Source: a virus. From it: a stretch of 26,271 nucleotides of DNA. The stretch lies in the IMG/VR virus record IMGVR_UViG_3300032282_000149, positions 1-26,271 of that record; one strand, given 5' to 3'. Of the stretch, positions 1 to 24,076 are shown piece by piece (position 1 is the stretch's first letter; every line of letters starts with the position of its first letter). The position numbers were made by a program, and so were the translations under genes. The notes under the pieces were generated by a model. The model was given only the letters and a program-made list of their open reading frames with translations. It was not told where the DNA came from and did not search any database.

Positions 1-381
1 ACCACCACCAGAACCACCAGAACGACCATTACTTGTCCACCCGCCTCCGCCTCCACCACCAGCAGAAGTTATAGAAGAAAAAATTGAACTTGATCCATTG
101 GAACCAGGATCATTAGTTTGGCCACTTACAAAAGTGCCGCCGCCGCCAACTGTAACACTATATGGTGTGGAAGATTGAATAGCAAAATTTGAAGCTGTTC
201 TGAAACCACCAGCGCCTCCTCCACCACCAACGTTACCACCGCCAGCACCGCCGCCGCCAATTACAAGATAATCAACAACAGAAGCTGTACCAGCAAGTTG
301 ATTTAATCCAGTTGGAAAAGCGTAACCAGCTGGTCTTACAAAAGAACCATTTTTAGTATTATTAAAATATTCTATCGCCAT
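1..381 (-). CDS. Glycine-rich tail adhesin, partial (C-terminal part lies beyond the window)
   Basis: An open frame of 127 codons starts with ATG at 381 and runs off the left edge with no stop. An AGGAT ribosome-binding site precedes the start. The N-terminus (MAIEYFNNTKN, then RPAGYAFPTGLNQLAG) leads into VVDYLVIGGGG followed by glycine runs, the layout of the Gly_rich_2-type phage tail proteins. It closely parallels the two glycine-rich proteins at 9837-11706 in this window. In T-even phages, glycine-rich loops of gp38-type adhesins form the receptor-contacting tip; that role here is inferred. The 112-residue gene just upstream (396-734) is paralogous to the one preceding the glycine-rich protein at 10792-11706, so the two genes appear to travel as a pair. 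The missing C-terminus probably carries the SGIVIVRY and FTGDGTF motifs of its relatives. Confidence 0.8.
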   Translation of the reverse strand, partial: MAIEYFNNTKNGSFVRPAGYAFPTGLNQLAGTASVVDYLVIGGGGAGGGNVGGGGGAGGFRTASNFAIQSSTPYSVTVGGGGTFVSGQTNDPGSNGSSSIFSSITSAGGGGGGGWTSNGRSGGSGGG

Positions 382-2333: not shown

Positions 2334-2340
2334 TATTTAT
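2334..2340 (-). promoter_or_regulatory. Putative late promoter core ATAAATA (unit: 248-residue fibre to left edge)
   Basis: ATAAATA on the minus strand overlaps the TAA stop of the S74 spike gene and lies 23 bases upstream of ATG 2310. It matches the core of the T4 late promoter TATAAATA and the NATAAATA form reported for T4-like cyanophages. The intervening sequence holds AAAGAGAAAC as ribosome-binding site. Confidence 0.65.
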
Positions 2341-3407
2341 TTAGCTTTTAAAGCAGCAATTTCCACTGCCTGAGCATCAACAATTTCTTTAAGTTCTTTA
2401 ATAGCATTTACCAACAATGGAATCATATCTTGATATTGTAAACCTAATTTTCCATTTGGATCAGTTGTAATAGCTTCAGGTAAAACTTCTTGAACATCCT
2501 GTGCAATTAAAAATGCTCTACGAGTTTCTTCTTCATCAGATTTAAATTTACCAATAACAGTTCTTAATCCTACCACTTTATTGAGACCATCTGTAATTGG
2601 TTCAATAATATCTTTTAATGTTTCATCGGAAGAAGATGAAAAACTTGTGGAACCGTAACCCATATAAACGCCAGCATCAGCTGCATTATAGATAATCATA
2701 TATGGATTAGCATCAGCAGTTGCACCAATTTTCCAATATCTACCTGCGGTATTTTGTGCATTTCTAACAATCAACTGTGGCGAATTTCCGGCGGCAGTAT
2801 TGTTTACAAAAGAATGGCAAGAAGTTACTAACGGCGAAGTTACACCTACCAACAAATTACCGTTAGCATCAATACGCATCCGTTCTGTGCCGCTATTGTT
2901 TGTGTAAAACACGACATTATTTGTAGCGGCTACCATTGCATCTGCTGATGTATCGCCTAAAAATGTTCCTGATACACCATAATGTGCAAGAGTTGTTCCA
3001 TTTTGTTGTGCCCTTACTACTCCACCTCTAGTTGTAGCATTAATAGCAACAATACTAGAAACTGAATCTGTAACAGTTAATTTATTTGTAGGGCTAGTAG
3101 TACCAATACCAACATCTCCACCAGAAGTAACTCTAACCGCTTCAACGCCAGCAGTATGAACTCTTACTGTATTGGCAGTTGCAGTATTGAAACCTGTTGT
3201 GCCAGTAGAATCAAAATTTAAATTGGAAGAAACAGTTGCATTTACAATCGTAGAGTTGCCAAATGTGCCGTCACTACCAATAATTTTACCACCAGTATTA
3301 CTGTAAATACCAGAAGCGTTAATAGTAGCAACTCGTGTGTTGCTGACATTCATCTGAAGAAATGAACTTTCAGTTTGTATTGTATCTGCTATAATTTTAC
3401 CAGCCAT
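2337..3407 (-). CDS. Tail spike/fibre with C-terminal S74 self-cleaving intramolecular chaperone, 356 residues
   Basis: Residues 1-40 are the MAGKIIADTIQTESSFLQMN leader. Residues 95-110 hold GGDVGIGTTSPTNKLTV, and residues 165-190 hold a TERMRIDANGNLLVG repeat, both typical of trimeric beta-helical phage spikes. From about residue 256 the sequence is a peptidase S74 chaperone domain: SSSSDETLKDIIEPI carries the expected Ser260 and Lys265 catalytic pair (SDxxLK), followed by FLIAQDVQEVLPEAI and a terminal helix (IPLLVNAIKELKEIV). In this family the domain trimerises the spike and then cuts itself off N-terminal to the serine; here that would release about 97 residues. The homing endonuclease gene lies immediately upstream with two bases between its stop and this ATG. 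The stop codon overlaps the promoter of the next unit. Confidence 0.93.
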   Translation of the reverse strand: MAGKIIADTIQTESSFLQMNVSNTRVATINASGIYSNTGGKIIGSDGTFGNSTIVNATVSSNLNFDSTGTTGFNTATANTVRVHTAGVEAVRVTSGGDVGIGTTSPTNKLTVTDSVSSIVAINATTRGGVVRAQQNGTTLAHYGVSGTFLGDTSADAMVAATNNVVFYTNNSGTERMRIDANGNLLVGVTSPLVTSCHSFVNNTAAGNSPQLIVRNAQNTAGRYWKIGATADANPYMIIYNAADAGVYMGYGSTSFSSSSDETLKDIIEPITDGLNKVVGLRTVIGKFKSDEEETRRAFLIAQDVQEVLPEAITTDPNGKLGLQYQDMIPLLVNAIKELKEIVDAQAVEIAALKAK

Positions 3408-3409
3408 TA

Positions 3410-4054
3410 TTATGCCTTGTTTTGTTCTATAAATTTCTGTTTAGCTATCTCAGCTTCTTCTAAGCTAACATAATAACCAACATGGTGCCTTTTACCATTC
3501 ACATATGCTCTTGCTCTGAAATTTTTAATTCCGGTGCATTTATCAAAATGCCAGCGCTTCATACTTGTTTCGCCACCAGTCAGACTACAATTTGGACAAG
3601 TTACTTTCTTATATATGTAACCAGTCATAGCTAAAGTTCTTTTAGCTATACTTTCAGCTGTTTGTTTAACACCAGTCAATCTCTTTTTCATTGCTGCAAT
3701 TTGCTCTGGTGTTCTTTTGATGCCTTTTGCTCCAAAAGTTCCTTCACCACCATTTGTATTATTGGTCAAAATACCTGAACCGTCATTTCTTCTGCCGTAT
3801 TTAGCAATAAATTCTTGTTCTACTAAAAATGCCAATTCTTCATCAACATTGTCAATAATTTTACTAACTATTGGTTCTTTTCCTTCAGATAATAATTTAC
3901 GAACAACACGAACATTATATGAATTTAATTTTCTACCAGCTTTAGCATCCAAAAGATGGTGGTTGATTCTTTTGTTTGTACCTTTACCAACATAGAACGG
4001 AGTTCCATCAGGATAACTGTAAGTATAAACATAGAATCGGTTTTCAGAATTCAT
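3410..4054 (-). CDS. Free-standing GIY-YIG homing endonuclease with zinc finger and AP2-like DNA-binding tail
   Basis: This is a DNA-cutting mobile gene rather than a virion protein. Residues 8-25 (YVYTYSYPDGTPFYVGKG) are the GIY-YIG signature, followed by Arg29 in the NKRINHH segment, Glu79 and Glu81 in LVEQEFIAKYG, and LTNNTNGGEG near residue 97, as expected for the catalytic core. Residues 107-145 (GAKGIKRTPEQIAAMKKR and a second similar helix) resemble NUMOD3 DNA-binding repeats. Cys153, Cys156, His169 and Cys173 form a likely zinc finger. Residues 179-212 (FRARAYVNGKRHHVGYY, then a LEEAEIA helix) look like an AP2-type DNA-binding domain. Its ATG overlaps the upstream stop as TAATG, and its stop is two bases from the S74 spike gene, so it is read with the fibre genes. 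It probably spreads by cutting phages that lack it. Confidence 0.92.
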   Translation of the reverse strand: MNSENRFYVYTYSYPDGTPFYVGKGTNKRINHHLLDAKAGRKLNSYNVRVVRKLLSEGKEPIVSKIIDNVDEELAFLVEQEFIAKYGRRNDGSGILTNNTNGGEGTFGAKGIKRTPEQIAAMKKRLTGVKQTAESIAKRTLAMTGYIYKKVTCPNCSLTGGETSMKRWHFDKCTGIKNFRARAYVNGKRHHVGYYVSLEEAEIAKQKFIEQNKA

Positions 4055-4476
4055 TAAAATATTGTCCAGGTACTATTATTGGCAACTTGGACTGTGACCG
4101 AATTTGCGATTGTTAATGGCCCGGCCGAGGATGCATTATATCCTGTCGTGATACTAACATTCTCTGTTAGAATATTAGCGTTAATTCTTACGATACCTTG
4201 TGAATCAGCAGAAAGGTATGGGTTGACCAAAATTCTTTCGCCAAGGTAAGTTAATTCGATATTACTGGAACCACTTGGTGGTGCTTCAGTAAATACGATT
4301 TGTCCGTTAATCAAAGCATACGAATCTGCTTTTTGCTTTACACCAGAAATACAAACGATAACAGATGATTCGTTACCTGTGCCATATGCCAGCGAGTATG
4401 TGGTTTGACTTCCAGTACCAGAGAAATACTCTGTTCTGAACGAACCATTTATAATTTGATTGCCAAGATAACTCAC
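4054..4476 (-). CDS. Small tail fibre-like protein, 140 residues, GTG start
   Basis: The protein starts at GTG 4476 (MSYLGNQIINGSFRTEYFSG). Residues 19-79 are one copy of a beta-domain (FSGTGSQTTYSLAYG ... INGQIVFTEAPPSGSSNIELTY) that also occurs twice in the 223-residue protein at 12048-12719. The C-terminus (ENVSITTGYNASSAGPLTIA, then VTVQVANNSTWTIF) matches the end of the 68-residue protein at 9597-9803 and is a common terminal cap in phage tail proteins. The N-terminal MxYLGN also matches the 223-residue protein. This is the first gene of a unit driven by ATAAATA at 4513-4519, but no strong ribosome-binding site is visible before the GTG. It is likely a fibre or fibre-adaptor subunit. Confidence 0.82.
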   Translation of the reverse strand: MSYLGNQIINGSFRTEYFSGTGSQTTYSLAYGTGNESSVIVCISGVKQKADSYALINGQIVFTEAPPSGSSNIELTYLGERILVNPYLSADSQGIVRINANILTENVSITTGYNASSAGPLTIANSVTVQVANNSTWTIF

Positions 4477-4507
4477 GATTGTACCTTAATTAAATGTTTT
4501 GACATAT

Positions 4508-4546
4508 TCTTTTATTTATCTCTTATTCGTCAGCAGGTTCTGGAGT
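4508..4546 (-). repeat. 39-bp perfect direct repeat, copy A
   Basis: The 39 bases are identical to 5916-5954 at a constant offset of 1408 bases. They cover the last codons of the 51-residue gene (encoding TPEPADE), its TAA stop and the promoter core that follows. Similarity continues imperfectly beyond 4546 into the codons for the WVAxGN motif, but stops sharply at 4507. Confidence 0.9.
4513..4519 (-). promoter_or_regulatory. Putative late promoter core GATAAATA (unit: 140-residue protein, homing endonuclease, S74 spike)
   Basis: ATAAATA preceded by G lies directly after the stop of the 51-residue gene and 36 bases upstream of the GTG start at 4476. It is part of the 39-bp repeat shared with 5916-5954, so this promoter was probably copied together with the end of the small gene. 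Confidence 0.65.
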
Positions 4547-4678
4547 GTTGCCAGCAGCAACCCATGCTAAAAACTCAGGGTTATTTTCTGTGCACGTTAC
4601 TCGGCATAAATTATCATCATCAATTCTTGCGTAAATTTTAATGCCATCTTCATTTGTATTTAATAATTTATAAATCAT
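4523..4678 (-). CDS. Small acidic protein of 51 residues ending GNTPEPADE, likely fibre-assembly partner (copy 2)
   Basis: ATG at 4678 overlaps the stop of the 411-residue fibre gene as ATGA, and the frame closes at TAA 4525-4523. The translation starts MIYKLLNTNEDGIKIYARID, then has CRVTCTENNPEFLAWVAAG and ends NTPEPADE. It parallels the 49-residue protein at 5931-6080: both start with (M)YKLL, and both end with a (F/Y)[15 protein letters not shown] tail. The tail motif is common at the C-termini of phage tail-fibre assembly and accessory proteins. Each copy directly follows one of two paralogous long fibre genes, so a dedicated chaperone or tip-attachment role is likely. Short length keeps some doubt, but the overlap, conserved tail and paired context support a real gene. 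Confidence 0.75.
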   Translation of the reverse strand: MIYKLLNTNEDGIKIYARIDDDNLCRVTCTENNPEFLAWVAAGNTPEPADE

Positions 4679-5910
4679 AATTCTGCACTCCAGCCTAGAT
4701 AAGCATTTGTATTAACCGCCCTAAAACCACAACCTTGACCAGCAGTTAATCCTGATGCAGTAGGTAAATTTGTCCCAACCATTTGTGATGTGCCACCCTG
4801 AAACGCAGGAACAGATGAACAAACAACAGCCCCTGCTGCTACTCTTACTGTGTAATCTGATGCAGTCCCTGATTGTTCTAATGCAGTAGGATTTGTTCTC
4901 ATTTGAACTGGTAACTGTGTATAAACAGTTGCATTGGTAGTTGCGGTGCAAAATCCATTTCCTGAATCAGCAGTAGCAACAGGAACAGTTCTATAATAAT
5001 ACCGTTGACATAACATTAGTTCTTTACCATAAGGACGGAATTCAAAAGGTGTTGCCTGTGAACCTTTTTCCAATTGGACACCAGTGAGATACCAAGTAGC
5101 ACCAGAAGTACCAACTACTGATGTTGCACCTGTAGCTGAAGTATAATTATTTAAAGACCAAGACCCAGCAGTTCCAACTAATGTAGAACCTGCACCCATA
5201 CTAAAGTTAACATATGTACCAACACCATTAGTTGAACCCCAAGTTCCACTTGTTGGACCAGCAATAGTAATTACTTTTTGTTCCCAAGTATCGGCAGCAA
5301 CAATTGTGTAACTGAATGGGTATGAATAAGCAGTTCCAACATTTCTTAATGAACCACCAAAAGTACCAGTTAATGAAGAACGAACCCAAAATGATAATGT
5401 AACTGTTTTAGCTGAAGCGGTACCCCAAGCTAAATCAGCAATATTAGAACCTTCAATTACTTGTGCAACATTGTATTGTTCGGCAGAACCTACTGTGTAA
5501 GCAGAAGAAGAAACAACCTTTAATGAATTGGCAAAACCAGCAACTGTATTTGCTGAAGAATCTCGTTGAACGGTAAATTTTGAATCAACTGAACCAAAAG
5601 CATACCATCTATCAAGTGTATATGGCGCTGAAGTTGTTGCAGTAACACTAGCACCATTACTCCGTTGGTCAATTGCCATAGAACCATTAATGATTTTATT
5701 ACGGATACCAAATGATGTGCCTTGAGAACCCATATAATTCTCAACAGAACCTGTTTGAAATACTGTGTTGCTTAATGTATTACTAGCAATCTGTGTTGAA
5801 GTAATTGCACCATTAGCAATCAGATTAGCACTGATTGAGTATTGAACAAGGTCAGCCGCAATAATGGTATTATTAGCGATTGATTGCGTGTTTATTCTTG
5901 ATAAAGGCAT
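4675..5910 (-). CDS. Tail fibre protein with sugar-binding-like module and variable tip, 411 residues (copy 2)
   Basis: Residues 1-50 (MPLSRINTQSIANNTIIAAD ...) form a fibre attachment/shaft start. Residues 52-305 hold a module widespread in phage fibres: [83 protein letters not shown], and PYGKELMLCQRYY. It looks like a carbohydrate-binding beta-sandwich. The 410-residue protein at 6083-7315 matches closely across this module, but residues 307-411 differ almost completely between the two, apart from a similar last few residues (WSAEL versus FSSEL). This pattern suggests an exchangeable receptor-binding tip. A promoter core lies only 10 bases before the ATG. The 51-residue partner follows by ATGA overlap. 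Confidence 0.87.
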   Translation of the reverse strand: MPLSRINTQSIANNTIIAADLVQYSISANLIANGAITSTQIASNTLSNTVFQTGSVENYMGSQGTSFGIRNKIINGSMAIDQRSNGASVTATTSAPYTLDRWYAFGSVDSKFTVQRDSSANTVAGFANSLKVVSSSAYTVGSAEQYNVAQVIEGSNIADLAWGTASAKTVTLSFWVRSSLTGTFGGSLRNVGTAYSYPFSYTIVAADTWEQKVITIAGPTSGTWGSTNGVGTYVNFSMGAGSTLVGTAGSWSLNNYTSATGATSVVGTSGATWYLTGVQLEKGSQATPFEFRPYGKELMLCQRYYYRTVPVATADSGNGFCTATTNATVYTQLPVQMRTNPTALEQSGTASDYTVRVAAGAVVCSSVPAFQGGTSQMVGTNLPTASGLTAGQGCGFRAVNTNAYLGWSAEL

Positions 5911-5915
5911 AGTAG

Positions 5916-5954
5916 TCTTTTATTTATCTCTTATTCGTCAGCAGGTTCTGGAGT
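5916..5954 (-). repeat. 39-bp perfect direct repeat, copy B
   Basis: This is the partner of 4508-4546. It covers the end of the 49-residue gene, its stop and the promoter of the 411-residue fibre gene. Two such copies flank the 411+51 cassette and could allow its loss or gain by homologous recombination. Confidence 0.9.
5921..5927 (-). promoter_or_regulatory. Putative late promoter core GATAAATA (unit: 411-residue fibre and 51-residue partner)
   Basis: ATAAATA lies between the stop of the 49-residue gene and ATG 5910. Only 10 bases separate it from the ATG, so a transcript starting at the usual T4 late distance would have a leader of just a few bases. It belongs to the same 39-bp repeat as the element at 4513-4519. 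Confidence 0.6.
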
Positions 5955-6080
5955 ATTACCTTCAGCAACCCACTTGAGGTATTCTTGGTAATCGGTGTTG
6001 TCAGGGTCGAATGGAATAACTGCACCATCAAAAACTCTACGCACTTGATTAGAATTAGATTCTTTTAATAATTTATACAT
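5931..6080 (-). CDS. Small acidic protein of 49 residues ending GNTPEPADE, likely fibre-assembly partner (copy 1)
   Basis: ATG at 6080 lies two bases after the stop of the 410-residue fibre gene, and GGAG in the end of that gene acts as a ribosome-binding site. The translation is [19 protein letters not shown], then [20 protein letters not shown], ending [10 protein letters not shown], with TAA at 5933-5931. It shares its start and its tail with the 51-residue protein at 4523-4678, including a run of identical DNA over the last codons. The motif IPFDPxNxDYQxYLxWVAEG is typical of small phage tail-assembly proteins. A dedicated folding or attachment role for the preceding fibre is inferred from position. 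Confidence 0.78.
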
Positions 6081-6082
6081 TT

Positions 6083-7315
6083 TTATAGCTCCGAACTAAA
6101 ATTTACCCAGCTTGCACTTTGATATATTAAAGGTGCCCAACCAACAGTTAATCCACTCCAGCCTGTTACATTTAAAGATGCAGCATCTTTTTGAATATTA
6201 CTACCTGCAATATAAGAACCCGAACTTGTAAATGCACCCGAACTGGCTCTATCAACAGTAATAGTTCCACTTGGCACAGAAGCAGTAGGTGCGGCTCGCA
6301 TTGTTACTTTATAAGGAACGCTAAATGACATAGAAGCTGCTTCATAAACAACACCTATACCACCACTAATTGATTGATAATAACGTTGGCACAATGTTAA
6401 TTCAATACCATATTGGCGATATTCAAAAGGAGTTGGAACAGAACCTTCTTCAAATTGGACACCAGTAATATACCAAGTAGCACCGTTTGTGCCGACTACT
6501 GATACTGCACCTGTAGCCGAATCAAATCCACTACCACTTGCCCATGCACCTGGAGTTCCACTATATGTGGTACCAACACCTAAGCCAAACTCAACAATTA
6601 TACCAATGCCGTTTGTTGTTAACCAAGTTCCTGATGTGTCACCTGGAATAGTTACAAATTTCTGTTCCCAAGTATTAGCTGCAGAAATAGTATATGTATA
6701 TGGATAACTTCTTGCATAACTTGAGTTAGATATAGCACCACCAAATGTTCCTGTCAATGAAGAACGAACCCAAAATGATAGTGTAACTGATTTAGCTGAA
6801 GCAGTTCCAAATCCTAAATCAGCAATATTATTTCCTTCAATTCTTTGAGCAATAGAAAAATAATCTCCAGAACCAACTGAGTATGATGATAAAGAAGTAA
6901 CCTTTAATGAACTAGTAAAACCAGCTACAGTATTTGCTGAAGAATCTTGTTGAACTGTATATTTTGAGGATTGTGAAGCAGTAGCTTGCCATCTATCTAG
7001 TGTATATAAAGTTGTTGTAACTGTATTAGCTGCTCCAGAATTTCGCTGGTCAATCCTCATGGCACCATTGATAATTCTGTTTCGCATACCAAAATCTAAT
7101 GTATTGGCTCTCATGTAGTTCTCAACAGAACCGGTCTGAAATTGATTATTTGCTACTGAGTTTGCAGTAAGACTAATTGCTGTGTTTGAAGCCGCAACAA
7201 TAACACCAGAACCATCCACTTGAAATGATGGAATAGTATTAGCGGATCCAAATGTATTGGATGTAATATTATTAGTTACTGCGATGACAGCAGGAACAAC
7301 CTTAGTAATTGCCAC
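6083..7315 (-). CDS. Tail fibre protein with sugar-binding-like module and variable tip, 410 residues (copy 1), GTG start
   Basis: The start is GTG at 7315 ([20 protein letters not shown]), preceded by AGAGAG. The N-terminal ~55 residues ([17 protein letters not shown]) are a fibre leader unlike that of copy 2. Residues 59-312 are the shared module: [109 protein letters not shown]. The remaining ~100 residues are a different tip from that of the 411-residue protein. It is the first gene of a unit with promoter core ATAAATA at 7340-7346, followed by its 49-residue partner. It probably binds a surface sugar on the host; the specificity cannot be read from sequence. Confidence 0.87.
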
Positions 7316-7339: not shown

Positions 7340-7346
7340 TATTTAT
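7340..7346 (-). promoter_or_regulatory. Putative late promoter core AATAAATA (unit: 410-residue fibre and 49-residue partner)
   Basis: The element contains the TAA stop of the 58-residue XkdW-like gene and stands 24 bases before the GTG start at 7315, with AGAGAG between as a ribosome-binding site. Confidence 0.65.
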
Positions 7347-7519
7347 TCTGTAACTGCATCCAACTGAGCTTGAGTTGGTTGTGTTAATGTTGGGTGAGTC
7401 CAAGACTTGATGTAGTCACCATTGCCATCATTTTGGAGAAGAATTGTTCCTTCATCAATATCAAAATCACGCACAGTCAATTGTGGATATAATGTTAAAA
7501 TTTTATTGTATAAACTCAT
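7343..7519 (-). CDS. XkdW-like small protein, 58 residues, likely fibre chaperone (copy 2)
   Basis: The chosen start is ATG 7519, which forms an ATGA overlap with the stop of the preceding C1q-like gene; an in-frame ATG eight codons upstream would add residues unlike the paralogue. The protein begins MSLYNKILTLYPQLTVRDFD, then has GTILLQNDGNGDYIKSW and ends THPTLTQPTQAQLDAVTE. It aligns along its whole length with the 60-residue protein at 8843-9025 and with the XkdW family first named from the Bacillus PBSX tail region. The family's function is not established. The repeated head-plus-XkdW arrangement suggests a dedicated assembly partner. Its TAA stop is embedded in the ATAAATA element that drives the next unit. 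Confidence 0.85.
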   Translation of the reverse strand: MSLYNKILTLYPQLTVRDFDIDEGTILLQNDGNGDYIKSWTHPTLTQPTQAQLDAVTE

Positions 7520-8043
7520 GCTGACCTCGCCAAAAATCCACAAAAATATGTTCCTGAACTTGTTGCATATATATACTTACTAATTCCACTTTCTTGCCTT
7601 ACATATATTTCAAAATAATCAGTTGTTCCATTTGCATATAATAACGCTGACACAAATCTTGATGGATATGTAGATGCTGGTCCATTTAAATTTTCTTCTC
7701 TATAAACTGCAGCAGAACCATTTTTATAAATCCAAGTTTGTGCTCTGCCACTAGTTTGATAATCTGATTGGCCAGCAAAAGTTAATTGATAATATCCGGC
7801 TACAGTAGGTGTAAAAGTTCCTGTTGAAGTATTAAAACAACTAGCGGTATCGTAATTTTCTGCTGTAAAAGTTAATTTTGTTGTAGTAGAAGTTGCTATT
7901 GAGGCATCTGATGTATAATAAGCATAAAACGCTGGCGCCAATGTAGATGCTAATTGAAATCCAATGTTTGCTCCACTGGAATTAAGATTAGCCATAATAA
8001 CGCCATTGGCCGTTTGTATTTGATTGACTTTTATAACTGACAT
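7516..8043 (-). CDS. C1q-like tail fibre head protein, 175 residues (copy 2)
   Basis: After a short leader (MSVIKVNQIQTANGVIMANL) the protein has a jelly-roll domain of C1q/TNF type: PAFYAYYTSDASIATSTTTK, TASCFNTSTGTFTPTVAGYY, WIYKNGSAAVYREE, LLYANGTTDYFEIYVRQ, and YFCGFLARSA at the end. The 190-residue protein at 9025-9597 has the same motifs in the same order. C1q-like domains form trimers and occur at the tips of phage fibres, so this is probably a trimeric receptor-binding head. The MSVIKVNQIQTANGV leader is a common fibre N-terminus. The XkdW-like partner follows with an ATGA overlap. Confidence 0.85.
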   Translation of the reverse strand: MSVIKVNQIQTANGVIMANLNSSGANIGFQLASTLAPAFYAYYTSDASIATSTTTKLTFTAENYDTASCFNTSTGTFTPTVAGYYQLTFAGQSDYQTSGRAQTWIYKNGSAAVYREENLNGPASTYPSRFVSALLYANGTTDYFEIYVRQESGISKYIYATSSGTYFCGFLARSA

Positions 8044-8046
8044 AGT

Positions 8047-8328
8047 TTACTCTGGTTTTGGATATTTAGTCTTAACGGCCTGGCAGGCTGCAATATAGGC
8101 ATCAATTTGTTCTTGGTCACCTTTCACTACACCATCAATATAATCTAGTAAGCTTGGATATTCTGCTTGACGCTTGGCAATATATGCGTGGTTGTTGATG
8201 TATGTCTGAACAGCTTCAACATCATAAGATACTTCGTTGCCGCTAGCATCATAGGCAATATCATCAATAAATTTGACAATTTGAGGATAAAGTTTAAAAA
8301 TAATATCTATTTGTTTTGTAGTAATCAT
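8047..8328 (-). CDS. Small phage tail protein of 93 residues ending VKTKYPKPE, likely assembly partner
   Basis: ATG 8328 overlaps the stop of the 172-residue fibre gene as ATGA. The sequence runs MITTKQIDIIFKLYPQIVKF, then YIAKRQAEYPSLLDYIDGVV, and ends AACQAVKTKYPKPE. The RxxEYPxxxDxxDxxxKG core followed by VKxKYPKP is a very widespread small phage protein found beside tail fibre genes, sometimes called a tail-assembly chaperone; a biochemical role has not been shown to my knowledge. The segment DDIAYDASGNEVSYDVEAVQ shows an insertion-type N-terminal half. Its position after a fibre gene mirrors the XkdW-like and PEPADE proteins in the same array. Confidence 0.83.
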   Translation of the reverse strand: MITTKQIDIIFKLYPQIVKFIDDIAYDASGNEVSYDVEAVQTYINNHAYIAKRQAEYPSLLDYIDGVVKGDQEQIDAYIAACQAVKTKYPKPE

Positions 8329-8843
8329 GCTGCTATCTCCATCAAAACAATTGATGATGCAGAAGAATCATCTTGAAATACAAGAGAACCAGAATTACCC
8401 ATTTGTCCTTGAACTTTATAAGTGATTGAAGATGTGGTTGCCGGAGAATCAAGAATAGTAACAGATGGAGCTACAGCTTGTTCTCTACTACCACTCGCAG
8501 CATCTACACTTATATAATTGTAATAAGCTCCGTAATTTCCAGGATTTCTGTAAATAGAAGTTGCATCTCTCAATACTTGAAGCGACATTCCAACATTGTT
8601 TTGAGAATTTGATACATTCTGATACATCTGCAATGTAACCAAAACTAATATTTTGCTAGTAGAAAATCTAGGTGTGATTGATGCAGTTACACCTGTATCT
8701 TGCCAACTGCTAGGGCTTGAAAAAGCAGTTCTAGTTGTATAAGTTTGATTGACCGTTTGAATTACACTACCTGTTGGCAAAGATGAAAGTCCACCTACTG
8801 CGGCTAATCCTGTGATTGATGAACTATTAAGGACTAAAGGCAT
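8325..8843 (-). CDS. Tail fibre-like protein, 172 residues, with ITPxxxxSKILV domain
   Basis: The leader MPLVLNSSSITGLAAVGGLS is followed by LPTGSVIQTVNQTY, SWQDTGVTASITPRFSTSKI, LVLVTLQMYQNV, LQVLRDATSIYRNPG and the ending SSASSIVLMEIAA. This is a well-represented phage fibre domain in which GSVIQ, W.DTG, ITPxxxxSKILV and the terminal SSIxLMEIA are conserved. It is probably a beta-sandwich head, similar in overall plan to the C1q-like proteins around it but with no clear sequence identity to them. Its ATG overlaps the stop of the XkdW-like gene upstream as TAATG, and its stop overlaps the 93-residue partner as ATGA. Confidence 0.84.
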   Translation of the reverse strand: MPLVLNSSSITGLAAVGGLSSLPTGSVIQTVNQTYTTRTAFSSPSSWQDTGVTASITPRFSTSKILVLVTLQMYQNVSNSQNNVGMSLQVLRDATSIYRNPGNYGAYYNYISVDAASGSREQAVAPSVTILDSPATTSSITYKVQGQMGNSGSLVFQDDSSASSIVLMEIAA

Positions 8844-9025
8844 TATTCTGTTACTCCGTCTAATTGCTCTTGTGTTGGTCTAGTTAAAGTAGGGTGTTCC
8901 CATTTGGCAATATAATCGCCTTTGCCATCTGAATCGTTTTGGAGGCGAATAGTTCCAGTTATTGGAGAAAAATCTTCTAAAGATAATTCGGAATAAATTG
9001 ATTTGATTTTATCGTATAATGTCAT
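8843..9025 (-). CDS. XkdW-like small protein, 60 residues, likely fibre chaperone (copy 1)
   Basis: The start ATG at 9025 overlaps the stop of the C1q-like gene in TAATG. The sequence MTLYDKIKSIYSELSLEDFS, then GTIRLQNDSDGKGDYIAKW and EHPTLTRPTQEQLDGVTE is a close match to the XkdW family pattern (LYxKIxxxYPxL, IxLQNDxDGxGxYIxxWxHPTLxxPTxEQL). The 58-residue protein at 7343-7519 is a paralogue. The N-terminal helix, acidic loop and proline-containing C-terminal segment resemble other small fibre-assembly proteins. Each XkdW-like gene directly follows a C1q-like head gene, which is the best evidence for a functional pair. Confidence 0.87.
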   Translation of the reverse strand: MTLYDKIKSIYSELSLEDFSPITGTIRLQNDSDGKGDYIAKWEHPTLTRPTQEQLDGVTE

Positions 9026-9597
9026 TATGCAGCCCTTATCAATATACCTTGAAAGAAATTATTTGATGAACCAGTATTTAATACTTTATTAACACCAGCT
9101 GCATGATACCAAGATATATTAACATAATCAGAAGTTCCATTTAAATATACAAGTGATGATGTGGATTGTAACCATATATAGCTTGCTGCCATATCATTTC
9201 CATAAGCATAATCGGATCCATTTTTTAATATTGAAACGATTGTTTCGGCAGAAATAGCACCTGACCAATAAACTTGTGCATTAATCCAATAATAACCAGC
9301 AACATTAGGTGCAAATGAATAAGCAGGTACAGAAATACCATTTAATGTTACAGTTGATCCAGTATTATTAAAACAAGTTGCAGTATCATTTACTTTAGTT
9401 TGGTATTGAATTTTTGTTCCAGTACCTGTTGCAATTGTTTGTTGTGAACTTTGATATGCAATAAACGCCGGCATATTGCCACTAACCATTACAGTACCAG
9501 TTGCTGCTGGGAATGTTGCAGTTAAATCTGAAGCACCATCAGCGCTTACTAATGCTAATGAACCGCCAGCAGGATTTTTTAATTTTAAATTTGCCAT
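9025..9597 (-). CDS. C1q-like tail fibre head protein, 190 residues (copy 1)
   Basis: An in-frame ATG at 9612 exists, but ATG 9597 is preferred: it overlaps the upstream stop as TAATG and gives the common leader MANLKLKNPAGGSLALVSAD, followed by ATFPAATGTVMVSG. The C1q-like domain follows: PAFIAYQSSQQTIATGTGTK, DTATCFNNTG, YSFAPNVAGYYWINAQVYWS, SILKNGSDYAYGND, YLNGTSDYVNISW, and NFFQGILIRAA. The domain matches that of the 175-residue protein at 7516-8043, while the leaders are unrelated, so heads and attachment leaders have been exchanged. A trimeric receptor-binding tip is the likely role. The XkdW-like partner follows immediately. Confidence 0.86.
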   Translation of the reverse strand: MANLKLKNPAGGSLALVSADGASDLTATFPAATGTVMVSGNMPAFIAYQSSQQTIATGTGTKIQYQTKVNDTATCFNNTGSTVTLNGISVPAYSFAPNVAGYYWINAQVYWSGAISAETIVSILKNGSDYAYGNDMAASYIWLQSTSSLVYLNGTSDYVNISWYHAAGVNKVLNTGSSNNFFQGILIRAA

Positions 9598-9803
9598 TAT
9601 AGAATTACCCAAGTGGAACCAGCATTCAATGTTACTTGATATGGGTCGTTAATTGTGATTGGTCCAGCAGAGTAAGCATTTTTATCGGCTGATACAGAAA
9701 TGTTTGATGTAACATTCTGTGAAGTATATAGCATAACATGATTAGCTTGAGTATCAACATACTGTGCGCCGCCGCTACTTGGATTAATCTGTTGAATTGG
9801 CAT
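9597..9803 (-). CDS. Small tail protein of 68 residues with terminal-cap motif
   Basis: ATG 9803 is preceded by AAGAGAAAA and by a promoter core at 9829-9835. The sequence is MPIQQINPSSGGAQYVDTQA, then NVTSNISVSADKNAYSAGPI and ends TLNAGSTWVIL. Its C-terminal half matches the end of the 140-residue protein at 4054-4476 (NVSI...NASSAGPLTI...NNSTWTIF). The SAGP(L/I)TI...GSTWxI motif is a frequent terminal cap of phage tail proteins. As the first gene of a unit that then encodes C1q-like and other heads, it may be a connector to which they bind, but this is a guess. Confidence 0.78.
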   Translation of the reverse strand: MPIQQINPSSGGAQYVDTQANHVMLYTSQNVTSNISVSADKNAYSAGPITINDPYQVTLNAGSTWVIL

Positions 9804-9836: not shown

Positions 9837-10790
9837 TTAGTTGATGGAGAATAAGTTTGCTGTATTAGCAGTAAATGTTCCATCACCTGTGAATGTATGA
9901 ATGGTAAATCCAGAGTTAGAAGTTACTGTCCCGCCTGTAGCAGATTGTCCACCATAGTAGCGAACAATAACAATACCTGAACCGCCGGCACCTGATGTGG
10001 ATGGAGAATCACTTCCGCCACCGCCACCGCCACCACCAGTATTAGTTGTTCCATTTACACCAGCTGTACCACTTCTTATTCCGCCTTTGCCACCACCGCC
10101 TAATCCGCCAGCACCACCATCACCGTTTGGACCTAATGAATTAGAACCTCCGCCACCTCCACCAGCATATGATGTAACTGAACCAGTAATTGCAGAAGCA
10201 ATTCCGTTTCCGCCTTGGCCAGCGTAACCAGTATTATATCCACCCTCTACACCAGATATACCAGCGGCTCCTGCGCCGCCGCCGCCGCCACCGGATTCTT
10301 GGCCATTACCAGCAAAAGTGCTTCCGTTTCCGCCATTATTTCCTTGACCAGGAGTTCCTGAAGATCCAGGCGCAGCTGCTGGACCAGGTGAATATCTTGC
10401 GCCGCCACCAGAACCACCAACTGTGCTACCAGGTGCACTTGGGCCACCGCCGCCAGCACCACCACGATAAGCTGTTACTGAAGCAAATACACTATTAGAA
10501 CCTTCTGAACCTGAAGAATTTGTTCCAGTTCCAACTCCGTTTCCGCCACCGCCAACTGTTACTGTGTAAGGAGTGCCAGCAGTAATTGAAAGTGTTCCAG
10601 TTTGAAAACCTCCAGCACCTCCGCCGCCGCCGCCACCTTGAGTATTACCACCTCCACCACCGCCAGCAACTACAACATACTCAACTGAAGTTAATGTGTT
10701 TGCACCAGCAAATGAATTTAATCCAATAGGATATGGAAAACCGGATGGTCTAAATGTTTGTAAAGAAAATTGTTTTGTATTATCACCCAT
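9837..10790 (-). CDS. Glycine-rich tail adhesin, 317 residues (copy 2)
   Basis: Residues 1-35 (MGDNTKQFSLQTFRPSGFPY ... NSFAGANTL) are the attachment part. Residue 35 begins SVEYVVVAGGGGGG, the start of a Gly_rich_2-type region. Residues 43-270 contain about a dozen glycine runs broken by short variable loops, which in related phage adhesins would pack as polyglycine helices with exposed loops. The C-terminus has SGIVIVRYYGG (271-281), GGTVT and TIHTFTGDGTFTANTANLF, nearly identical to the 304-residue paralogue upstream. Glycine-rich adhesins bind host outer-membrane proteins or sugars in T-even phages. There is one base between the upstream stop and this ATG. The long antisense frames here are only the reverse reading of the glycine codons. 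Confidence 0.87.
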   Translation of the reverse strand: MGDNTKQFSLQTFRPSGFPYPIGLNSFAGANTLTSVEYVVVAGGGGGGNTQGGGGGGGAGGFQTGTLSITAGTPYTVTVGGGGNGVGTGTNSSGSEGSNSVFASVTAYRGGAGGGGPSAPGSTVGGSGGGARYSPGPAAAPGSSGTPGQGNNGGNGSTFAGNGQESGGGGGGAGAAGISGVEGGYNTGYAGQGGNGIASAITGSVTSYAGGGGGGSNSLGPNGDGGAGGLGGGGKGGIRSGTAGVNGTTNTGGGGGGGGSDSPSTSGAGGSGIVIVRYYGGQSATGGTVTSNSGFTIHTFTGDGTFTANTANLFSIN

Positions 10791-10791
10791 A

Positions 10792-11706
10792 TCAATTTAC
10801 CATGTAATTAGCTGCGTTAGATGTAAATGTTCCATCGCCTGTAAATGTATGTATGGTGTATCCACCAGAACTTGTAACTGTGCCACCGCCAGCGGCTTGA
10901 GATCCAAGATAACGAATGATTACGATACCAGAACCTCCGCTGCCGCCGTTACCACCGTTTGGTGCTGGTGCGTTAGCACCTCCGCCACCGCCACCGCCAT
11001 TTCCTGTATTAGCTGGGCCGGATGTTCCTGTGCCACTACCTGCATAACTTCCGCCGGCGCCACCAGCTGCATATGTTGCTGGACTTCCTGAATATGGACT
11101 TGCAGTTCCTGATCCTGCGGATCCGCCTGCGCCGCCAGAGGGGCCAGGAGAACCGTTTCCGCCTGCACCACCTTTACCACCACCACCACCACCACCGCCA
11201 CCTTGTGGAGAAGCACCGCCATTTCCGCCTATATTTCCTTGAGCTGGGTGACAACCTCCACCATAACCAGTTGCGGGGCCACCGTTACTTCCGCCGCCGC
11301 CAGATCCAGAAGCACCCATCATTGAGCCTGGATTTATTGTAGCGATACCATGTTGATAACTACCAGAACCACCACCACCGCCAATTGCAGTAATAGTAAA
11401 GAAACTTGATGTTGACCCTTGGCCAGAATTTGGACTAGAAGGACTACCAGCTGAACCGGCTGGAGCTCCGCCGCCAACAGTAACAGCATATGATGCTCCT
11501 TGGCGAATAGCTAAACCTGTACCTGTTAAAAGTCCACCAGCACCTCCACCAGCACCGCCACGAGCAGCTGGTGCACCACCTGATCCGTTACCAGCGCCGC
11601 CAACAACCAAATAATCTACTGAAGTTGGTCCGCCAGTTGCAGCTGAATTATTGAGAGCTACAGGGTAATCGTAATTTTGAGGACGACCTACTCTACGAAT
11701 ACTCAT
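10792..11706 (-). CDS. Glycine-rich tail adhesin, 304 residues (copy 1)
   Basis: The start ATG at 11706 overlaps the upstream stop in TAATG. Residues 1-30 (MSIRRVGRPQNYDYPVALNN ...) precede SVDYLVVGGAGNGSGG and a long glycine-rich region (38-260) with runs of up to nine glycines. The C-terminus carries SGIVIIRYLGSQ, GGTVTSSGGYTIHTFTGDGT and FTSNAANYMVN, as in the 317-residue paralogue next door. Loop sequences between glycine runs differ between the two, while the N- and C-terminal frames are conserved, as expected if loops set receptor specificity. It follows a 112-residue gene, the same order as at the left edge of the window. Confidence 0.87.
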   Translation of the reverse strand: MSIRRVGRPQNYDYPVALNNSAATGGPTSVDYLVVGGAGNGSGGAPAARGGAGGGAGGLLTGTGLAIRQGASYAVTVGGGAPAGSAGSPSSPNSGQGSTSSFFTITAIGGGGGSGSYQHGIATINPGSMMGASGSGGGGSNGGPATGYGGGCHPAQGNIGGNGGASPQGGGGGGGGGKGGAGGNGSPGPSGGAGGSAGSGTASPYSGSPATYAAGGAGGSYAGSGTGTSGPANTGNGGGGGGGANAPAPNGGNGGSGGSGIVIIRYLGSQAAGGGTVTSSGGYTIHTFTGDGTFTSNAANYMVN

Positions 11707-13072: not shown

Positions 13073-13087
13073 TATTTATCTATTTAT
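13073..13087 (-). promoter_or_regulatory. Tandem late promoter cores GATAAATAGATAAATA (unit: 108-residue protein to glycine-rich adhesins)
   Basis: Two ATAAATA elements eight bases apart (13081-13087 and 13073-13079) lie upstream of ATG 13049; the first contains the stop codon of the 247-residue gene. A CAAGGAT ribosome-binding site follows. This is the only doubled element in the window. Confidence 0.7.
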
Positions 13088-13827
13088 CCAAGTGCAATTG
13101 AGAGCGCAACAGAATTATCAATCGCAGTATTAGCTGATGAAAATGCACTATTCGCATAAGTTGAAGCACTATTGGCCACCTCAAACGCACTATTACCATA
13201 CGAAGCTGCGGAGTTGGCTGTGTAACTAGGAGTGTTAGCCTGTAAGAAGGCCGAATTTGCTTTACCAAATGCTGAGTTAGCGTATGAACCAGCAGAAGTT
13301 GCAAAGGCCTGTGCCGTTGCAATGTTGCTATATATTGCAGTATTGGCAGAGCCTGTTAAAATTGTTACATTAGCGGTTGAGAAATTACCATATGTTGCAG
13401 TTGCATTACTGAGGGTTGTGTTACCAGTAAGAATTGAGAAACCGCCAATTGAAAGATTGTTAGCAGCTGTAATAGAACCATTGGCAATAATATCGTCAAA
13501 GCCAATCGAATCAAGAATAATATTTCCTGATACTGTTACATTACCAGCAACAGTTAAGTCACCGCCAATATAGCCAGTTGATGAAACATTCAAAGTGGTT
13601 ACATTAGTAAAACCACCAAGAACTGCATTGTTCGCATACAGAGTATTGATACTTGCTGAGTTGCGGACATTTAACTGTGAACCTACACCAGAAACATCTA
13701 GTATGGTGTTAGCAACAAACGAAGCGCCATTACCATCAGTAAGGGTATTGGCGGTTGCAATTAAATTTTGAGTTGCCGCTAACCAATGTTGAAAGGTATT
13801 GGCGGTTGTTAATTGATTAATCGCCAT
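13084..13827 (-). CDS. Tail fibre-like protein with (Y)ANSAF repeats, 247 residues
   Basis: ATG 13827 overlaps the upstream stop as TAATG. Residues 1-75 (MAINQLTTANTFQHWLAATQ, then LIATANTLTDGNGASFVANT) are a leader shared with many phage fibres. Residues 76-160 (LNVSSTGYIGGDLTVAGNVT, VSGNIILDSIGFDDI, NNLSIGGFSILTGN) are beta-helical shaft sequence. Residues 181-236 are short tandem repeats of the type YANSAFxxANSAF, probably a helical or extended trimeric stalk. It is likely the baseplate-proximal part of a fibre. The gene is the last of the baseplate unit, and its stop lies inside the downstream promoter. Confidence 0.84.
   Translation of the reverse strand: MAINQLTTANTFQHWLAATQNLIATANTLTDGNGASFVANTILDVSGVGSQLNVRNSASINTLYANNAVLGGFTNVTTLNVSSTGYIGGDLTVAGNVTVSGNIILDSIGFDDIIANGSITAANNLSIGGFSILTGNTTLSNATATYGNFSTANVTILTGSANTAIYSNIATAQAFATSAGSYANSAFGKANSAFLQANTPSYTANSAASYGNSAFEVANSASTYANSAFSSANTAIDNSVALSIALG
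13120..13287 (-). repeat. Tandem repeats encoding (Y)ANSAFxx units
   Basis: Residues 181-236 of the 247-residue fibre protein consist of about seven imperfect units based on YANSAF, GKANSAF, TANSAAS, GNSAFEV and YANSAFS. They are coding repeats, not a CRISPR array: units are short, degenerate at DNA level and have no spacers. Confidence 0.8.
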
Positions 13828-21581: not shown

Positions 21582-24076
21582 GCCACTATTATTAAATCTT
21601 GAACATTTGATGTATATGTAAATGGTGTGGAAACTGTCAATAGGGTATTACTGTAAATGGCATTAACCGTTCTAATTTCAGAGTTAACCGCAATCTGTGA
21701 ACCAACAGTAATGATTCCAGTAACCACATTAAACAATGTGCCTGTTCCCATCACATACATACTGCCGTTTGTGTTTACAGTACCAGCAACACTATTGCTT
21801 ATAGTTATGCTACTTCTGGAAAGATTGTTTGCGGCCACAACTTCATCAATCTTAAATTCTGCATACTCCACAAAACCAGCTGGATGAATAAGGTTTTTAA
21901 AGACATCTTTAAATTTACCAAATTCGACTTTAGAAGAAAGAACATAGGCATAATCAATATAGAAATTACGACCTTGAATAACTCTTTCTGAAGCAGAAAG
22001 AATAGAATCGGATGTCGTCCAACGACCAGGAAATTCAACATAACTAGGTTCAACTGAAGCATTGGCTCTTGCAGCTCTATTACCACTTCCAGTCAAATCA
22101 ATTTCTGGTGGATATTCATATCCTTGACCAGCATCAACAATACGAATTTTTAAAATTTCACCTGGATTTTTGTCTGCCGTTGCAAATAGATTTTCACCAT
22201 CACCAAGTATTCCTTGGACTGCAATATTAGCATTTGCACCAGATGTAGAAGATACTGTTACAGAAGGAAGTTTATTAAAAGCATAATTGATACCACCAAT
22301 TGGCAACAATTCAAATTTACCAAGTTTTCTATTTGTTTCAGTATAACCAAAATTTACATTGGTTGTCAATGAAGTATTAGAACTAATAGCATTAACCCAA
22401 CTGATTTGGTTGTTAACCATAATCTGGTCACCAATCTCCAATTCTCTTTGAAATAATGTGCCTGTTCCAGTAAGAGTGTTTAATGTTGAAGTAACATTAA
22501 CTGTGCCAGTAAGTCTTGGTGGTTGTAATTGAACTTTAGTAATTGCACCACTTGTAGATACATTAGTTACAGCAGCAGCTGCACCAAAACCAAACGACAT
22601 TGGTTGAGTTAATGTGAATACAAGTTCATCACCAATGGCATAGTTTGTTCCGCCACTATTGATTGTTAATCTACCTAAAGAGCCTGTTGAATAAACGTGC
22701 TCAACTTCTCCACTAGCAGTATATGGTGCAGATTCAGCATCCAAAGTTGGAACAGTAGAAAAAATTGCGTTAGCAAAAAGAATTGCCACATTGGTAATTG
22801 GACCAATACCTGTCAATGGTGCAAATGTAAAAGCGTCAATTAATCTTGTTGCAACATTTTCCGTAACAGCACTTGGAAATCCATAATTTGCATCACTAAT
22901 AGTTTTTGTAGTGTAGTCACCAATCTTATCAGTATTAACAATAAAACTATTAGCTGCATTGGCACCTGAAGTATCAACTCCGTCAATTGCCAAAACTAAT
23001 GAAGCATTTGCAGTTGTACCAACCAAGTTTACATTTGAACCAATTTTAAAACCTGAACCACCAGCAAGAACACGAATTTGATTAATGTAACCAGAGAATA
23101 CTTCTGAAACCAATGCTTCAGCTTGTTTAACAGCATTACCACCAGTAATAACTACGGGGTCACCAACATTATAACTTGCGCCACCATCAATAACATTAAT
23201 AGTTCTTAAAATTGATAATCCTAAAACTTCAATATAAATTAATGTGGAATCATCAGGATCAATAATAGTTAATGTTCCAACTTCACCATCGGCAAATTGA
23301 CCAACCAAAGTTTTTGTATTTACATATAATTCAAATGAACCAACACCATTAACCGTTTTTTGGCCAGTTCTTTCAACAATAGCATATGCATTAGATGTTG
23401 TACCAACAACTTTTCTATTGTTTAATAGTTCATAATTAAAATTATTATAAAGAATTCTTATTTTAGCATTACTACTTGGTGCAGTATTGAATACAAGTTT
23501 GCGGCTTTCTTTACGAATTCTAAAATTAGTTGTCTGAATAACATCATCCACATAAACAACAATTTCAGTAGAATCAACAACTTGTGCTAGTTTGAATATA
23601 GTTGTTGTACCGTTGCCTGTATAGGTGCTGTAAACATCTTGTGAAATACGAAAGGCTTTTTCAATTAACCACTTACCATCTGAAGCTTTAAGAACACTTG
23701 ATTTGGGTTGAATAACTTCCACATCTTCATTGAAAAGAAGTCTGAATAGAAGTTTAAATGATTTTTCATTACCTTTAGCAAGATACAAAGGCAATAAATT
23801 TTTAATTAATAAAGCTTTATCAACAGCAACTGTTTTTGGAACTAAAGAAGCGTAAGTATTAAAAAAGTTATCTTCAAATTGAACAATAGATGAATCAACA
23901 TCAGAAACATACCGCAAATCTTTAGCTTGCGATGTTAAATCATTATTTTTGCCGGTTTGTTTTGTTTCCAAAAATTCATAATATGCTTCCAAAAAAGCAA
24001 TAAAATTAGGATATTCTTCCCGAACAAACTCCGGTACCTGACGATTAATCAGTAAGGAGGTCTTTTGATTGGACAT
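21578..24076 (-). CDS. Baseplate wedge-associated protein in the gp7 position, 832 residues
   Basis: The gene lies between gp6 and gp8 and its ATG overlaps the gp6 stop as TAATG. The N-terminal ~140 residues (FVREEYPNFIAFLEAYYEFL, FEDNFFNTYASLVP, LLPLYLAKGNEKSFKLLFRL, LFNEDVEVIQPKS) form a helical domain known from T4-like phages of aquatic bacteria in this gene position. The rest is beta-rich. It includes FKLAQ..VYVDDVIQTTNF (160-185), four GxGY/GxNY-type repeats (around 291-365, 467-520, 595-622 and 643-675) and two copies of a ~55-residue module (526-579 and 764-822), each with GTGTLF, QIxVNxxI and VNAIxSNT. A conserved FGKFKDVFKNLIHPAGFVEY segment (719-738) is typical. Sequence identity to T4 gp7 is not evident; the wedge role rests on position and family. 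Confidence 0.82.
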   Translation of the reverse strand: MSNQKTSLLINRQVPEFVREEYPNFIAFLEAYYEFLETKQTGKNNDLTSQAKDLRYVSDVDSSIVQFEDNFFNTYASLVPKTVAVDKALLIKNLLPLYLAKGNEKSFKLLFRLLFNEDVEVIQPKSSVLKASDGKWLIEKAFRISQDVYSTYTGNGTTTIFKLAQVVDSTEIVVYVDDVIQTTNFRIRKESRKLVFNTAPSSNAKIRILYNNFNYELLNNRKVVGTTSNAYAIVERTGQKTVNGVGSFELYVNTKTLVGQFADGEVGTLTIIDPDDSTLIYIEVLGLSILRTINVIDGGASYNVGDPVVITGGNAVKQAEALVSEVFSGYINQIRVLAGGSGFKIGSNVNLVGTTANASLVLAIDGVDTSGANAANSFIVNTDKIGDYTTKTISDANYGFPSAVTENVATRLIDAFTFAPLTGIGPITNVAILFANAIFSTVPTLDAESAPYTASGEVEHVYSTGSLGRLTINSGGTNYAIGDELVFTLTQPMSFGFGAAAAVTNVSTSGAITKVQLQPPRLTGTVNVTSTLNTLTGTGTLFQRELEIGDQIMVNNQISWVNAISSNTSLTTNVNFGYTETNRKLGKFELLPIGGINYAFNKLPSVTVSSTSGANANIAVQGILGDGENLFATADKNPGEILKIRIVDAGQGYEYPPEIDLTGSGNRAARANASVEPSYVEFPGRWTTSDSILSASERVIQGRNFYIDYAYVLSSKVEFGKFKDVFKNLIHPAGFVEYAEFKIDEVVAANNLSRSSITISNSVAGTVNTNGSMYVMGTGTLFNVVTGIITVGSQIAVNSEIRTVNAIYSNTLLTVSTPFTYTSNVQDLIIVA

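Follow-up and report, generated by a model that had tools for sequence, protein, structure and literature searches.

Fibre-assembly helpers are characteristically encoded by a small gene that stands behind a fibre gene and changes with the tip of that fibre. In the myocyanophage Pam3 the fibre gp24 is served by gp25, a chaperone established by structure, a protein of 162 amino acids in which a variable N-terminal beta domain (residues 1–55) grips the distal fibre and a conserved helical trimerisation domain occupies residues 64–162 (PMC9608196). The Alteromonas phages V22 (gp26/gp27) and A5 (gp8/gp9) carry a fibre with a cognate chaperone, a module that is common to unrelated phages, and the strands of the chaperone have been modelled as added to the fibre sheet (PMC7289586, PMC10579305). 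A hypervariable island of fibre genes, the ‘host recognition cluster’, has been described downstream of the VrlC gene in pelagimyophages and cyanomyophages, which are T4-like aquatic phages (PMC7029224).

The DNA analysed here, referred to as the window, is a stretch of 26,271 nucleotides (positions 1–26,271 of IMG/VR record IMGVR_UViG_3300032282_000149) and is a fragment of the tail region of a T4-like myophage. It encodes a baseplate wedge protein at 24076–26139 (phrog_219), for which the nearest named match is in Pelagibacter phage HTVC008M (42%), together with two more wedge proteins and a giant protein of 1980 residues (phrog_358). Beyond the giant protein lie approximately 14 kb of short adhesin or fibre genes, on the minus strand throughout. 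This array resembles the host recognition cluster, the giant protein being VrlC-like by position only; in the portions of PMC7029224 that treat the cluster, tip and partner modules are not resolved, unlike in the cassettes of the window.

Two of these cassettes, A and B, each consist of a fibre gene and a small partner gene, all four being minus-strand open reading frames. Fibre B (410 amino acids, 6083–7315, GTG start) and fibre A (411 amino acids, 4675–5910) match the tail fiber protein family phrog_4492 with E-values of 3.7e-57 and 8.6e-52 respectively, both at approximately positions 734–1077 of 1096, and compared with each other they give 337 bits and 54% identity over 358 amino acids (E 1e-117). 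Each is made up of an N-terminal leader or anchor, a shared core of 255 residues and a tip. For fibre B these are residues 1–58 (7142–7315), residues 59–313 (6377–7141, delimited by alignment to A and relatives) and residues 314–410 (6086–6376, 97 residues), and for fibre A they are residues 1–50 (5761–5910), 51–305 (4996–5760) and 306–411 (4678–4995, 106 residues). Partner B (49 amino acids, 5931–6080) begins 2 bp after fibre B, and partner A (51 amino acids, 4523–4678) overlaps the stop of fibre A by 4 bp (ATGA). The partners have a variable N-part and a conserved PEPADE tail, which in partner A lies at 4526–4573, and the local match between the two is confined to the last 17 residues (14/17, E 5e-10).

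Relatives of the window were located through the downstream array gene at 4054–4476 (minus strand, 140 amino acids), where synteny is conserved. The preliminary description of the locus, as two fibre genes with a common core, unlike tips and a PEPADE partner each, is borne out, as are the extent of the similar stretch (255 amino acids in both fibres, ending CQRYY) and the dissimilarity of the last 100 or so residues, which hardly align apart from the S(A/S)EL end found in both. While the similarity holds for the core, the first 50–58 residues of A and B are also unlike each other; these leaders are conserved per slot, at 96% and 80% identity for slot A and 98% and 97% for slot B in the relatives L001 and L177 respectively. 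The label of ‘long fibre’ had to be dropped: the products are short adhesins, with a leader of approximately 50–58 amino acids, a CBM-like domain and a tip, and with no predicted shaft.

Direct repeats link the two cassettes, one of 60 nt (92% identical, 4505–4564 and 5913–5972) and one of 271 nt (79%). The T4-late-promoter-like element GATAAATA is found at 5921–5928 between partner B and fibre A and again at 4513–4520 after partner A, inside the 60-nt repeat (both minus strand). The motif alone is not above chance, since ATAAATA has 9 matches in the window against 12 expected. All nine sites are on the coding strand and mostly at gene borders (4513–4520, 5921–5928, 13073–13088 and others), like T4-type late promoters.

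Structures were modelled as monomers only. The AF2 model of fibre A has a mean pLDDT of 78.8, and its first 70 or so residues are not confidently modelled. Residues 70–283 are predicted to form a CBM4/CBM22-like beta sandwich (VIA-align Z 14.4 to 2y6j, rmsd 2.7, 161 residues aligned; Foldseek E 1e-5 to 1e-6), and the tip is modelled as a separate all-beta domain with block pLDDT mostly 82–97. Cyanophage tail fibres are among the closest matches to this model in the viral model library. A search of PDB sequences with fibre A returned nanobody-like matches only, at chance level, and a weak match of the fibre profile to 9t9r, ‘Spike (GP13)’ (E 0.74, two collinear motifs), was not used as evidence. 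Partner A is predicted to fold as three strands and one helix (beta-beta-beta-alpha, pLDDT 89.8), the conserved tail comprising the helix and GNTPEPADE. Foldseek gave no match to the partner fold with E under 0.8, and the best VIA result, a likeness to chemokines (Z 3.9), was put down to chance.

The core was matched in 76 phage records, many of them from Synechococcus and others from Methylophilales, Pseudomonas and Acidovorax, often with several copies per genome, and in 475 stretches of viral contigs. The 168 loci examined further, selected by likeness to this window, yielded 165 distinct core ORFs whose ends are complete. Their tips range from 60 to 121 residues, with (S/A)EL as the ending of almost every one. 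A PEPADE-type partner stands directly behind 146 of these 165 core ORFs, so the pair of fibre and partner is a general cassette, not peculiar to this genome. A literature search found, with the terms used, no paper that names this cassette of tip and PEPADE partner. An AEL tip end followed by a PEPADE partner of approximately 50 amino acids is a marker for listing swappable tips in metagenomes.

That tips are exchanged between related phages is strongly supported. L001 is a syntenic relative that retains both slots, and its DNA identity to the window in slot A is 98% in the core, 40% in the tip, 42% in the partner N-part and 72% in the partner C-part. The core match of approximately 775 bp ends near window position 5028; there is little resemblance, at approximately 40%, in the tip (32% amino acid identity) or in the initial two thirds of the partner, and identity returns in the PEPADE tail codons (approximately 4566) and the following GAGATAAATAAAAGA. 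At the protein level, slot B of L001 is 98% identical in the leader, 65% in the core and 27% in the tip. A third relative, L177, has yet another tip and partner in slot B, the B tip of the window being 25–27% identical to the same-slot tips of L177 and L001. In slot A of L177 the leader alone is kept, and it is joined to a glycine-rich adhesin as head and followed by a different protein of 115 residues, with synteny retained. The preliminary description had suggested looking in metagenomes for relatives with exchanged or with conserved tips, and exchange is what is seen.

Mosaics of both directions occur elsewhere among the collected loci. In the reverse of slot A of L001, L070 and L021 are 100% identical at the DNA level in the tip and 93% in the partner N-part, with 63% in the core, and L155 and L136 have 80% in the tip, 82% in the partner N-part, 41% in the core and approximately 30% in the flanks. 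A kept core with an unlike tip, as in slot A of L001, is found in L055 and L064 (core 91, tip 45, partner N-part 37 and partner C-part 99%) and in L167 and L111 (core 96, tip 42, partner N-part 57 and partner C-part 88%). From the reciprocal mosaics (L001; L070/L021; L155/L136) it follows that the unit of exchange is the tip together with the partner N-part, and the joints are the end of the core and the PEPADE codons of the partner tail. A counter-example is the pair L059/L054, where the tips are unlike and the partner N-parts are 87% identical. These comparisons locate precisely the points where T4-like phages of aquatic habitats exchange their presumed receptor-binding ends. The PEPADE stretch was considered as a recombination signal in the DNA and rejected: apart from some preference at Gly codons and one Pro codon, the choice among synonymous codons is about as variable there as in other stretches, so that its conservation is mainly at the protein level.

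Class T2 of the partners comprises 27 members with the motif RIDDD, including partner A, and class T1 the remainder, including partner B. With T2 defined after the data were seen, its partners occur on one tip family in 27/27 cases, the tip ending YL(A/G)(W/F)S(A/S)EL or near it (one by a relaxed pattern or inspection). The maximum-likelihood tree of the core requires at least 18 changes of partner class. Among 12 independent supported pairs on this tree, 11 change tip and partner together, none shows the opposite and one has the partner unchanged; this single non-differing pair is taken to be a borderline pattern call. When the core is accounted for, the similarity of tips is correlated with that of the partner N-parts (partial Mantel 0.25, 0/2000 permutations), while the partner C-part, that is the tail, gives no signal with the tip. 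For class T2 the partner follows the tip and not the core. The earlier suggestion that partners are matched to their tips therefore stands for the class of gene A; it is less secure within T1, where coupling was sought and is weak, and has its exception in L059/L054.

Two alternatives concern the origin of these patterns. Mosaics could be chimeras of metagenome assembly, joined in the conserved core and PEPADE stretches; the breaks are indeed located at conserved sequences and the close relatives are all metagenome contigs, but the pattern is present in many contigs, gene ends and reading frames are intact, the leader and head swap of L177 retains synteny, and the class switches are old enough to be visible on the protein tree and are concordant for tip and partner, which makes this explanation highly improbable. 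The preliminary description had instead proposed that the gene was duplicated and tips were then replaced, giving one particle two specificities or leaving one copy as a spare for switching. The tip replacement is upheld by L001 and the other mosaics, and the 60-nt and 271-nt direct repeats between the cassettes could recombine. Recent duplication within the lineage, however, is neither supported nor needed, because the cores of A and B resemble each other (normalised score 0.66) no more than they resemble those found in other phages (maximum 0.70 for A, excluding L001, and 0.75 for B). No recombinase or invertase was seen among the genes of the window, nor any strong inverted repeat around the two cassettes, so switching by phase variation is unlikely. 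Fibres A and B are both intact in frame, the leader plus core of B is under purifying constraint (dN/dS approximately 0.43 against L001) and both slots are kept in relatives, being intact in L001, which argues against a dead spare. Duplication with a spare copy is thus very unlikely as a whole, and the simpler reading would be that A and B are displayed simultaneously on one particle.

For the partner, the reading that we consider probable is that these T4-like host-recognition cassettes combine a tip with a cognate assembly chaperone of minimal size, or with a transient cap. The slot-specific leader would presumably fix the adhesin to the tail, and the beta tip of approximately 100 residues behind the CBM-like core would presumably make or shape the contact with the receptor; it is from its position and variability that we infer receptor binding by the tip. 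The partner of approximately 50 residues would then be the minimal chaperone or cap for its tip, its variable beta-sheet part recognising the tip and its conserved helix and GNTPEPADE tail doing a job common to all partners. Because on this proposal chaperone and tip must fit, recombination that replaces tips would be retained when the tip and the partner N-part move as one, the breaks falling where the core ends and within the PEPADE codons.

The partner is read in this way because it is linked to the tip, is of the size of the Pam3 gp25 N-domain and has its motif in longer proteins of the phages S-2L and Kaagvere. As with Tfa-type chaperones, its gene lies directly behind the fibre and is exchanged with the tip. 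S-2L gene 51, annotated as ‘tail fiber assembly-like’, likewise stands directly behind a fibre with a CBM core and shares the N-motif, and so does gene 42 of the P. putida phage Kaagvere; searches of the PDB with these two longer chaperones gave nothing useful. Partner B matches positions 3–48 of the 148 of phrog_20370 (E 8.9e-15) whereas partner A matches this family at only E 0.0058; with a limit of E ≤ 0.01, 22 of the 28 partners aligned match it. The C-terminal 100 or so residues of the family are missing here, since the match ends at 48/148 and the partner genes end after 49–51 amino acids. Neither partner A nor partner B matched Pfam (Tfa/Caudo_TAP, DUF4376), the 28 relatives matched other families only at chance level, and no likeness of the partner to a solved chaperone was found, either in sequence or in fold. 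The partner model is also without the helical domain by which Tfa-type chaperones trimerise.

A different role for the partner would be to stay attached to the particle and form its outermost receptor-binding element, in the manner of the gp38 adhesin of T2 and S16 or of Mu Tfa, with specificity set by partner and tip. The partner N-part is as variable as the tip and moves with it, and Mu Tfa has been reported to stay bound (PMC9608196, PMC10579305). The variable residues number only about 30, however, and among T2-class partners the N-parts vary little (RIDDDGLCRLTCTEDYPEF) compared with the tips (scores of 0.3–0.5 for the tip versus approximately 0.6 for the partner), which fits a helper better, so that we regard this role as rather unlikely. 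It is also unlikely that receptor binding resides in the CBM-like core and that the tip is a mere trimerisation or end-cap domain: the core resembles sugar-binding modules (Z of approximately 14 to CBM4) and solved structures of Klebsiella phage tail proteins contain sandwiches of this kind (7xyc, 8iqe), but likeness of fold is no demonstration of binding, and it is the tip that is most variable and is replaced while the core is kept. The core may nevertheless bind sugars in addition to any receptor contact made by the tip. Returning to the partner as chaperone, a tentative and somewhat doubtful extension is that a stand-alone fibre-binding domain of approximately 50 residues suffices without a trimerisation domain, and that GNTPEPADE is a common part through which very many modules of tip and partner can be fitted to many different cores and leaders in unrelated aquatic phages, in a plug-and-play arrangement with specificity set by tip and partner jointly. 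If it is a chaperone it would be very small compared with the helpers of approximately 160–240 amino acids described so far, and the matching of tip to chaperone would be easy to test.

Other kinds of small adhesin and partner cassettes adjoin at 7343–9612 (minus strand): a C1q/TNF-like adhesin (7516–8043) with an XkdW-type partner (7343–7543), an adhesin (8325–8843) paired with a phrog_9114 protein (8047–8328) and an adhesin (9025–9612) paired with an XkdW-like partner (8843–9025). The adhesin at 2337–3407 (minus strand) carries at its C-terminal end a Peptidase_S74 intramolecular chaperone domain, which is a third route to tip folding in the same array, and at 5435–6520 of L181 a slot-B-like leader is fused to an S74-like protein. 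Between array genes, at 3410–4054 (minus strand), there is a GIY-YIG homing endonuclease (PF22945; phrog_314) that neither L001 nor L177 has at the corresponding position. In the array of L181 a frame that looks GIY-YIG-like by eye lies at another location (886–1539), and in Manatee Spring phage (L172) a gene annotated as an HNH endonuclease adjoins fibres. The GIY-YIG endonuclease of the window may drive exchange within the cluster. Glycine-rich adhesins are encoded at 9837–11706 and 1–381 (minus strand; Gly_rich_2 for the first two) and resemble the kind of distal domain that Pam3 gp24 is described as having. Behind such adhesins in L177 are members of a family of 115 residues (4210–4557 and 933–1277; MAHFAKV...GGTPLRKNFA...), perhaps a partner type for glycine-rich heads.

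By the published description, the partner of 51 amino acids, with three strands and a helix, is comparable in size and make-up with residues 1–55 of Pam3 gp25, but the partners stop after approximately 50–60 amino acids without the helical domain, and the Pam3 fibre head is TNF-like/glycine-rich where those of A and B are CBM-like. The cassettes share with V22 and A5 a fibre with a cognate chaperone in a module found across unrelated phages, whereas the chaperones of V22 and A5 are DUF4376 proteins of 195 and 239 amino acids and the partners have no DUF4376 match. In S-2L gene 51 and Kaagvere gene 42 the N-motif continues into an extension of approximately 75–100 amino acids, and both the phrog_20370 profile and S-2L gene 51 have approximately 100 further residues compared with the partners. 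The T4 gp38 and Mu Tfa helpers are approximately 180 amino acids long, no sequence likeness to the partners was found, and no inversion system was seen in the window; as with T4 gp37/gp38 and Mu fibre/Tfa, however, tip and helper are exchanged as a pair, which in those phages changes host range. Modular exchange of tip and helper for host range is already known, and the new part is the very small size of the proposed dedicated helper.
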